A stretch of DNA of 64,000 nt from Woeseiaceae bacterium (lineage in GTDB: Bacteria; Pseudomonadota; Gammaproteobacteria; Steroidobacterales; Woeseiaceae), in NCBI GenBank assembly GCA_013042375.1, contig JABDQH010000028.1, positions 1 through 64,000 on the forward strand, read 5' to 3'. A program made the translations under genes and the position numbers. Positions 32,736 to 60,669 of the stretch are shown here, one piece after another. How positions within the stretch are numbered: the first letter of the stretch is position 1; the number at the start of each line of letters is the position of its first letter. The notes beneath the pieces were generated by a model that had not been told where the DNA came from, made no database searches, and saw nothing but the letters and a program-made list of their open reading frames with translations.

Positions 32736-32797
32736 GGGGACAGTCACCCTAACTCGTGTCGGTCATTCGACCGACCCGAGATAGGGTGACTGTCCCC
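32736..32797. repeat. REP-like long palindrome downstream of rnpB
   Basis: ggggacagtcaccct (32736-32750) / agggtgactgtcccc (32783-32797), 15-bp perfect arms extending inward with few mismatches to tcggtc-attc-gaccga. Confidence 0.9.
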
Positions 32798-32807
32798 TTA
32801 GAAGAAG

Positions 32808-33209
32808 GTGGGAAAGCCGGAGCCGGCAATAAGCCGGGTTCTGTCGCTGGCAACCATTCATCTGGGATAGCCGTCACCGGCTACCTCGAGCAACCTACCC
32901 GGGAGTCCGTTCGGAACCGACGGCGGGCAGCCGCCCAAACGCCCCTATTGGGGGCGTTGTGCGTTGCCCTACTCCCCTATTTGGTCTTGCTCCGGGCGGG
33001 GTTTACCGTGCCGCGAACTGTTGCCAGTCGCGCGGTGCGCTCTTACCGCACCATTTCACCCTTACCGGACTAAAGCCGGCGGTATATTTTCTGTGGCACT
33101 TTCCGTGGGCTCGCGCCCCCCAGGCGTTACCTGGCGCCCTGTCCGAAGGAGCCCGGACTTTCCTCCATAGCCTCGCTACAGCGGTTGCCTGGCCGACTCC
33201 GGCTTTCCC
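32808..33209 (-). ncRNA. rnpB: RNase P RNA (bacterial class A)
   Basis: Minus strand reads ...GGAGGAAAGTCCGGGCTCC...GCCAGGTAACGCCTGG...GGTAAGGGTGAAATGGTGCGGTAAGAGCGCACCG...GGCAACAGTTCGCGGCACGGTAAACCCC...AGAACCCGGCTTAT; 5' gggaaagccgg pairs with 3' ccggctttccc. Confidence 0.97.
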
Positions 33210-51990: not shown

Positions 51991-52037
51991 GGTGTCAGTC
52001 ACCTTATTTCGAATCCAGAAATAAGGTGACTGACACC
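51991..52037. repeat. REP-like hairpin filling the peroxiredoxin/VWA convergent gap
   Basis: ggtgtcagtcaccttatttc (51991-52010) - gaatcca - gaaataaggtgactgacacc (52018-52037): 20-bp perfect stem, 7-nt loop. Confidence 0.95.
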
Positions 52038-58025: not shown

Positions 58026-59405
58026 ATGCTAAATCGCCGACGCTTCCTGCAGGGCATCGTTGCCGCTGCAGCCACACCACCTGTCGTTTACAGCTGCACC
58101 AAGGGTAAGGGCCCGTCGCGCAACGGCCTGGTAGCGGATGCGCGCGGCCTGTTCGACCTGGCGCCGGGCCTCGATTACACAGTCGTATCGAGGTACGGCG
58201 ACCTGATGAGCGACAAGCTCCACGTCCCCGGCGCACACGACGGCATGGCCGCTTTCGCGGCACCGCAGGGCCGGATATCGATCGTCTGTAATCACGAACT
58301 GAGCAGCGGCCGGCGGATGAATAGCGCGCTCGCGGCCCGGTATCCGGAGGCGGACGGGGACCTGCTCGAGAGGTTCTACGATCGCGGCAGCGACAAGTCG
58401 CCGTCTCCCGGCGGCACCACGACGACGATCTACGATCCGGCCTCGCGCCAGGTCGAACGCCAGTTCCTGAGCCTTGCCGGCACCGAGCTCAACTGCGCCG
58501 GCGGACCGACGCCCTGGGGCAGCTGGCTGTCCTGCGAGGAGTGCTTCGAGAATCCGGGCACGGCACGGCTTTTCGGGCCCGGGCATGTGCGCGACCAGAA
58601 GCATGGCTACGTGTTCGAAGTACCGGCCGCGGCGAACGGACTCGTCGACCCGGTGCCGCTCAAAGCCATGGGCCGCTTCGAGCACGAGGCCTGTGCCGTG
58701 CACGCAGCGACCGGCATCGTGTACATGACCGAGGATCGCCATCACAGCCTTTTCTACCGCTTCATCCCGGACGTCCCCGGCGAGCTCGTCAGGGGCGGCA
58801 GATTGCAGGCGCTCGCCGTCGACGGTGCGGCGAGCCTGCCGACGCACAACTGGAGCGATACTCCCTACGTACCGCCGAGGCAACCGCTACGGACTCGCTG
58901 GATCGATCTCGAGGACGTCGACCCGGCCGAGAACAACCTGCGCCTGCGCGGCGCCGCGCTTGGCGCGGCGATGTTCGCCCGTGGCGAAGGACTGTGCGTC
59001 GCAGACGATCGCTTCGCATTCACGTGCACGATCGGGGGGCCGGCGCGCCTCGGCCAGGTGTTTACCTATAAACCAAGCCCGCACGAAGGGACCACGCGCG
59101 AAACCGAAGAACCCGGCGAACTCGAACTTATCGCCGAGGCGGGCACCAACTCGTTGCTGCACCATTGTGACAACCTGACCATGGCGCCCTGGGGTGATCT
59201 CGTTGTGTGTGAAGACACGTCATCGAACTGCGGCATCGTCGGCATCAGACCCGACGGCAGCCAGTATGAGATCGGCAGCAACCCGTATTCGAATTCCGAA
59301 CTCGCGGGCGTCTGTTTCTCGCCCGACGGCAGCATCATGTTCGTCAACGTGCAGTATCCCGGCACGACGCTCGCCATCACGGGCGACTGGAGCGCACTGC
59401 AATAA
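58026..59405 (+). CDS. PhoX-like (DUF839) protein, Tat-exported
   Basis: NRRRFLQGIVAAAA twin-arginine motif; NCAGGPTPWGSWLSCEE PhoX-family motif. Confidence 0.9.
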   Translation: MLNRRRFLQGIVAAAATPPVVYSCTKGKGPSRNGLVADARGLFDLAPGLDYTVVSRYGDLMSDKLHVPGAHDGMAAFAAPQGRISIVCNHELSSGRRMNSALAARYPEADGDLLERFYDRGSDKSPSPGGTTTTIYDPASRQVERQFLSLAGTELNCAGGPTPWGSWLSCEECFENPGTARLFGPGHVRDQKHGYVFEVPAAANGLVDPVPLKAMGRFEHEACAVHAATGIVYMTEDRHHSLFYRFIPDVPGELVRGGRLQALAVDGAASLPTHNWSDTPYVPPRQPLRTRWIDLEDVDPAENNLRLRGAALGAAMFARGEGLCVADDRFAFTCTIGGPARLGQVFTYKPSPHEGTTRETEEPGELELIAEAGTNSLLHHCDNLTMAPWGDLVVCEDTSSNCGIVGIRPDGSQYEIGSNPYSNSELAGVCFSPDGSIMFVNVQYPGTTLAITGDWSALQ

Positions 59406-59493
59406 GGTGCCAGTCACCTTATTTCGTCGATGAAACCGTTTTTGACCGACAGCTCAAGCCGAGATTTAGAATCAAAATAAGGTGACTGGCACC
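59406..59493. repeat. REP-like element filling the PhoX/pgk convergent gap
   Basis: ggtgccagtcaccttattt (59406-59424) / aaataaggtgactggcacc (59475-59493), 19-bp perfect inverted arms around a 50-bp centre. Confidence 0.95.
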
Positions 59494-60669
59494 CTATTCT
59501 GCGGCGCGACGCTCGAGCATCTCGACGGCCGGCAGCGTCTTGCCCTCGACGAACTCGAGGAAGGCCCCACCTCCTGTCGAGATGTAGGATATGCCGTCGC
59601 GGACACCGTACTTGTCGATAGCCGCCAGGGTATCTCCGCCACCGGCCACCGAAAAAGCACTGCTGGCGGCGATCGCGTCTGCCAGCACCCGCGTGCCCTC
59701 GCCGAAACGGTCGAACTCGAACACTCCGACGGGGCCGTTCCAGATGATCGTCCCGGCATCTTCGACAATCGCCGCGAAACGCCTGGCCGTGTCCGGACCG
59801 ATGTCGAGGATCATCTCGCCATCCTGCACCTCGCTCACCGAGCGCGTCGTGGCCTCGGCGTCGGCGGAGAACGCGTCCGCGCAGACCACGTCGTCAGGGA
59901 CCGGGATATCGGCACGGTCGTCCGCATTGGCGGCCAGTTCGCGCGCCGTATCCAGCATATCCGCCTCGTGCAGGGACTTGCCGACACCGTGGCCTGCGGC
60001 CGCGATGAAGGTGTTGGCGATGCCGCCGCCAACGATCAGCGTGTCGACCTTGTCGGCCAGCGCGCCCAGCACGGTCAGCTTGGTCGAGACTTTCGACCCG
60101 CCGACGATGGCAACGAACGGGCGTGCCGGATTGTCGAGCGCCCTGGCAAGCGCATCGAGTTCCGCCGCCAGCAGCGGCCCCGCGCAGGCAACGGCCGCAT
60201 GTTCGCCCGCGCCATAGGTACTGGCCTGGGCGCGATGCGCGGTGCCGAATGCGTCCATGACGTACACGTCGCACAGGGCCGCCATCTTCTTCGCCAGCGC
60301 CTCATCGCACTTCTTCTCGCCTTCGAGGAAGCGGACGTTCTCGAGCAGCACGATGCTGCCGGGATCGACAGCGACGCCGTCGATCCAGTCCCGGGCCAGC
60401 GGCACGTCACGCCCCAGCAGCTCGCCGAGGCGATCCGCGACGGGCTGCAGCGAGAACTTGTCCTCGGGCTGCCCCTCCGTCGGCCGGCCGAGGTGTGACG
60501 TCACCATGACGGCCGCACCGGCCTCGAGCGCCGCCCGGATCGTCGGCACCGCGGCCCGGATACGGGCGTCGCTCGTCACCTTGCCGTCGGCGACCGGGAC
60601 ATTGAGATCTTCACGAATGAATACGCGCTTGCCCGACAAATCAATGTCGGACATCTTGAGGATGGCCAT
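59494..60669 (-). CDS. pgk: Phosphoglycerate kinase
   Basis: [48 protein letters not shown]. Confidence 0.97.

Follow-up and report, generated by a model that had tools for sequence, protein, structure and literature searches.

A probable REPIN-like doublet of TIRYT-type terminal repeats between phoX and pgk in a Woeseiaceae bacterium

The gap between the convergent genes phoX and pgk of a Woeseiaceae bacterium, 88 bp long, is wholly filled by an inverted repeat. Very probably this element is non-autonomous and REPIN-like, a doublet of the terminal inverted repeat that a TIRYT-type (TnpA-Y1 subclass 2.1-like) RAYT uses. Among bacterial repeats it is a well-evidenced new example of a kind already known, and not a new kind.

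Inverted doublets in the window

The window (the whole 64,000-nt stretch of DNA that was analyzed) carries the following features.

59401..59498, no strand: whole doublet including the outer AATAA / CCTATT flanks with both stop codons (inverted repeat, fold)
59406..59424, plus: left arm GGTGCCAGTCACCTTATTT, C type; the same C-type arm bounds the C39 RAYT unit
59425..59474, no strand: centre, 50 nt, present once in the genome (best match elsewhere E=0.08)
59466..59470, minus: subterminal TCTAA within TTATTTTGATTCTAA, inward from the right arm; borders both ends of the C39 RAYT unit
59475..59493, minus: right arm, reverse complement of the left arm (sequence pattern)
59403..59405, plus: phoX stop codon TAA, provided by the outer flank of the element
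59494..59496, minus: pgk stop codon TAG, provided by the outer flank of the element
58026..59405, plus: phoX (PF05787), convergent neighbour (Pfam)
59494..60669, minus: pgk (PF00162), convergent neighbour (Pfam)
51991..52037, no strand: second doublet, of T type, with a centre of 7 nt; its neighbours are genes for a peroxiredoxin and a CoxE-like VWA protein
32736..32797, no strand: third doublet, of GGGG type (GGGGACAGTCACCCTA...), whose centre contains a nested hairpin; the doublet folds at -32.1 kcal/mol (z -10.5)

The coordinates agree with an initial annotation of this DNA, according to which the gap between the phoX stop (59405) and the pgk stop (59494) is exactly the element (59406-59493). 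Complementarity of the arms (GGTGCCAGTCACCTTATTT / AAATAAGGTGACTGGCACC) reaches into both stop codons, and the full inverted repeat has 24-nt arms that are 96% complementary with 50 nt between them (59401-59424 with 59475-59498). Both genes now end inside the outer flanks of the element (AATAA and AATAG). As single-stranded DNA, the 59-kb element folds at -24.8 kcal/mol (z -6.6) and the 52-kb element has a z-score of -9.1, so that the doublets tested (59-kb, 52-kb, and GGGG-type window elements) span z -6.6 to -10.5.

The arms of the 52-kb doublet (51991-52010 / 52018-52037) are 100% complementary with 7 nt between them, and its last base belongs to the stop codon of the VWA gene. The sole difference from the 59-kb arms, T for C at arm position 5 and mirrored on both arms, is the paired change that the initial annotation had reported. 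The same annotation held that the two centres differ completely. This stands for the rest of the 50-nt centre, for which a second genomic copy was sought and none was found, and fails for the part adjoining the pgk-side arm, which belongs to an extended terminal motif (TTATTTTGATTCTAA); motifs of this kind also occur at the two ends of the C39 RAYT unit and with several further C-type arms. The third, GGGG-type doublet of the window (32736-32797) is not mentioned there. Judged by eye over 32736-32850, it adjoins a possible RNase P RNA 3' end on the minus strand (AAGCCGGGTTCTGTC).

Genomic copies, arm pairing and insertion sites

Copies were counted in the window's own genome, a 2.76-Mb bin that is 84% complete, and both the RAYT set and the copy number are therefore incomplete. 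The census combined pattern searches with fetched sequence stretches and accepted at most one mismatch in a 13-nt core, a selection that makes the core columns look more invariant than they really are. The arms of the window are not a product of chance, given five arm-like matches within it (0.04 expected), 66 arm half-sites in the genome by pattern against none for the reversed pattern, and the folding z-scores. The other copies supposed by the initial annotation do exist: no fewer than 41 inverted doublets were counted in the genome, besides about 30 arms that stand singly or in tandem. Arms fall into four types, which begin with GGTGC, GGTGA, GGTGT, or GGGGA and continue with CAGTCACC and roughly YTAWTTC, and both arms are of the same type in 37/41 doublets. 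Centres are mostly unrelated and, counted from one 13-nt core to the other, range in length from 8 to 76 nt; it is indeed the arms and not the centre that define the family, as had been proposed. The subterminal TCTAA is present in 9/45 C-type arms, compared to 0.3 in shuffles, and in 0/55 arms of other types. Tandem arm pairs on contig C76 (L208, 6811-6847 and 7742-7778) appear to be inserted in frame in one trp operon, within trpC (GDSHPNEGVSHLIS) and trpF (KVTDTSVRVTDTV), with both reading frames remaining open; a fourth RAYT unit bounded by these tandem arms, which lie 0.9 kb apart, was considered and rejected in favor of two insertions in trp genes.

Covariation between arms was observed in a set of 36 doublets with non-overlapping inner parts, where the expectation came from arms shuffled among elements and the counts are uncorrected for relatedness among copies. 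Arms agreed in 36/36 doublets at position 3 (21.5 expected) and in 32/36 at position 5 (14.6 expected). Within arm types, agreement at inner position 1 reached 26/36 against 16.0 in shuffles (p=0.0008), and above-shuffle agreement was also found at inner 4 (p=0.05), inner 5 (p=0.009), and outer -1 (p=0.006). Pairing between the flanks inside one arm gave no covariation excess, and GGGG-type doublets retain the pairing of arm with arm although their in-arm stem, GGTG/CACC, is broken. Hence, the conserved pairing is that between arms, and in-arm pairing was rejected as the conserved structure. The left arm of the 59-kb element folds by itself at -7.0 kcal/mol, whereas a GGGG-type arm does not (z +0.35).

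What this covariation means for selection is a separate matter. From two copies the initial annotation had concluded that base pairing is maintained; the covariation does extend across the genome, but a single pair of copies is no proof of selection on pairing, since position 5 marks the subfamily and master copying gives an equal pattern. Uncompensated arm substitutions, which had been named as evidence to the contrary, occur in 15/36 testable doublets (at least one mismatch between arms), a minority as decay would give, and 21/36 are perfectly matched over 19 nt. Covariation alone cannot separate selection on pairing from the copying of matched master elements, and either such copying or hairpin-templated repair could give equal arm agreement. 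An account of the covariation in which arms are matched without selection for pairing, through matched subfamily masters or hairpin-templated arm-to-arm repair, is compatible with the main explanation and has, in our estimate, somewhat less than an even chance of being correct. It gains from the fact that arm types follow subfamily and RAYT lineage. The above-shuffle agreement within subfamilies at inner 1, 4, and 5 and outer -1 weakens plain subfamily copying; masters below the subfamily level would still account for it, and templated repair is left unaffected.

The insertion sites can be compared with those of relatives. In 28 same-genus genomes phoX and pgk are convergent, and none of them (0/28) has the element: the two genes overlap in 11, mostly by 4 bp (CTAG or TTAA), and are separated by 4-18 bp in six and by at least 40 bp in 11. 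At the 52-kb junction the element is absent from 27/27 same-genus genomes checked, 13 of which have overlapping genes. Since both junctions are element-free in relatives, often with overlapping stop codons, the window elements are best taken as insertions, and lineage-specific insertion at both junctions is the simplest reading of the sequences. Several of the phoX-pgk gaps of at least 40 bp hold other, unrelated inverted repeats; such elements, differing among themselves, were seen at L177, L190, L167, L178, and L162-L166, with a CACGACCCACAG-like centre common to L177 and L190. The phoX-pgk junction looks like a recurrent landing site.

With gene orientation taken from a home-made codon model, 17 doublets lie in convergent, 20 in unidirectional, and 4 in divergent contexts, and a stop codon falls within -20..+2 of the arm (median -8) in 44 of the 54 flanks that read toward it. 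Placement at gene ends and REP termini that supply stop codons are already known for other REPs (PMC3733652).

RAYT genes and co-divergence with the repeats

Three Y1_Tnp genes are present in the genome. That a RAYT flanked by the same arms might lie elsewhere in it had been anticipated by the initial annotation, and C39 is such a gene, as is C35 with arms of the GGGG/GGTGA/GGTGT types. The C39 RAYT, a single-copy gene adjoining parB, encodes an HUH/Y1 protein of 222 aa (motifs NHIH, WQ, YVECNP) that scores 81 bits against NCBIfam REP_Tyr_transpos, just above the cut-off of 80, and aligns weakly with TnpA-REP 4er8 across the HUH and Tyr motifs; a C-terminal HTH-like domain was sought, and no Pfam C-terminal domain appeared at E<1. 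C-type arms bound the C39 unit at both ends, the parB-side arm providing the parB stop codon. The subterminal TCTAA follows the arm at both unit ends and also follows the pgk-side arm of the 59-kb element. Given the common C-type arms and TCTAA motif, it is a short derivative of the C39 unit that the 59-kb element appears to resemble most. The C35 RAYT (219 aa; NHIH, WQ, YVELNP) is flanked by paired arms, and its outer repeat GGGGACAG fits the consensus GGGGWSAS exactly, while that of C39 (GGTGCCAG) is a variant. A third RAYT, on contig C120, has a flanking inverted repeat of its own (L054, 909-938 and 1741-1770), about AAATGGGGTCAGACCTTTTTAA; this repeat is of a different type and contains GGGGTCAG, which also fits GGGGWSAS.

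Repeats and RAYTs diverge together across relatives. In a set of 82 RAYTs, made up of C39, C35, and 80 that a search found, 40 have GGKGACAGTNNACY-type repeats on both sides, compared to 0 in shuffled controls; the search demanded GG...C(A/G)G, and the other 42 may carry other types. Repeat distance was correlated with RAYT distance (Mantel r=0.47, p=0.0005). The nearest RAYTs come from gammaproteobacterial and Woeseiaceae metagenome bins, which suggests, without proving, the placement of this host. The same-genus genomes G071 (28 arms) and G015 (17 arms) have mainly G-type arms (GGTGGCAGTCACC), and arms of this type also flank their RAYTs; the RAYTs of G002 and G028 have GGTGACAGTGACC. The base at position 5 is a subfamily marker that follows RAYT lineage, being C here and G in G015 and G071. 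In G018, 12 arms were found, mostly C/T-type, and a search for a close RAYT returned a distant one only; these arms are possibly a relict population after RAYT loss, or the RAYT falls in an assembly gap.

Competing explanations and known systems

Under the favored explanation, the C39 RAYT would recognize C-type arms in trans while the element is single-stranded (e.g., on the lagging-strand template), with both arms paired as one long hairpin, and would cut and rejoin at the element ends so that copies reach new sites. Surviving copies would lie mostly just behind stop codons, where insertion is least harmful, and at phoX-pgk the element ends AATAA and AATAG would have come to provide both stop codons. 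We infer that the C39 RAYT moves the element by this single-stranded route and that position 5 mirrors RAYT specificity. Counting against a mobile doublet are the incomplete bin, the single-copy RAYT gene, the target-site signature, which was sought among the doublets and not found, and the G018 arms, which under this explanation need RAYT loss or an assembly gap.

Could the hairpin instead be a host regulatory structure, a bidirectional terminator or mRNA 3'-end stabilizer that was selected at convergent gene ends and is not mobile? A strong hairpin immediately behind both the phoX and the pgk stop, and the clustering of stops within about 20 nt of the arm in toward-reading flanks, are what such a role would give. 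We nevertheless regard it as improbable, as the element is missing from the corresponding junctions of the 28 and 27 relatives, identical arms bound a transposase gene, and a search of 59300-59600 gave no match to an intrinsic-terminator pattern. In Rfam, likewise, every match was sub-threshold and fell in an unrelated family (animal microRNA or SECIS); the best reached 26.9 bits (E=0.002), where the gathering score is 67, and all were taken as generic-hairpin matches. A host role may have been acquired after insertion. Less probable again, and by a good measure, is a MITE of an unrelated insertion sequence (e.g., a TA-duplicating IS630-like element) whose ends resemble those of the RAYT unit by coincidence. 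Long perfect terminal repeats are MITE-like and the outer ends are often bordered by TA or AT (AATArGGTG), but GGGG-type copies, examined by eye, have no consistent flanking duplication, and coincidence sits poorly with the joint divergence of repeat and RAYT seen across 40 RAYTs.

The mobile doublet most resembles two described systems. TIRYTs are RAYT relatives with terminal inverted repeats, some of them GGGGWSAS, whose dispersed copies are moderately abundant and often dimers (Di Nocera 2013, PMC3733652). Most were put in TnpA-Y1 subclass 2.1, near whose genes no REP-like sequences were found (Quentin 2018, PMC6006769), and which corresponds to Bertels group 1 (cited with PMC6006769). The present system shares with TIRYTs/TIRtrons a Y1 transposase between terminal inverted repeats (motifs NHxH, W(Q/E), and Y(V)ExNP), an exact fit of GGGGACAG to the published GGGGWSAS, and dispersed copies that are often dimers. 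It differs in its main types, which are GGTGnCAG and not GGGGACAG, in the number of copies (at least 41 doublets), and in having REP-like copies where Quentin 2018 (PMC6006769) found none near subclass 2.1 genes. Set by eye beside the motifs and length tabulated for that subclass (NHVH or NH[YF]H, W[EQ], YIELNP, median 238 aa; PMC6006769), C39 and C35 fit closely, departing slightly in having I for V and C for L; by motif, not by tree, they would belong to a subclass 2.1-type group.

In organization the closest analogue is the REPINs, likewise inverted doublets of a short repeat with a variable spacer, one long hairpin, dispersed copies, and a same-genome RAYT bounded by the same repeat (here C39 and C35); compensatory changes, too, were already described for them (Bertels and Rainey 2011, PMC3116915). 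Unlike REPINs, the arms here lack a GTAG/GTGG tag, their in-arm hairpin is weak or, in the GGGG type, absent, and the spacer is very variable (8-76 nt between cores). The GTAG-tagged REPs of E. coli and Pseudomonas also have a RAYT gene between two inverted repeats and repeats that diverge with the RAYT (Nunvar 2010, PMC2817692), as well as copies near gene ends with termini able to supply stop codons (Di Nocera 2013, PMC3733652). However, the GT(A/G)G foot is absent at the arm ends here, and the RAYT is distantly related to E. coli TnpA-REP (31 bits). Because in-arm covariation is lacking and the in-arm stem of the GGGG type is broken, the elements stand nearer to TIRYT terminal inverted repeats than to GTAG-tagged REPs. 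Among the papers searched, none tied TIRYT or REPIN elements to Woeseiaceae.

A broader proposal is more tentative, and we think it rather unlikely in full: a group 1 / TIRYT-type RAYT may sustain a large REPIN-like population, with position 5 as a specificity base that shifts with RAYT lineage, and with pairing or hairpin-templated repair holding the two arms in match. A RAYT group that has been little studied, and was described with terminal repeats but no REPs, is now tied to a sizeable doublet population. Element-free sites in related species, together with natural repeat variants paired with RAYT variants, make RAYT-repeat specificity testable. Furthermore, the phoX-pgk element illustrates how a housekeeping gene such as pgk comes to take its stop codon from an element of this sort.
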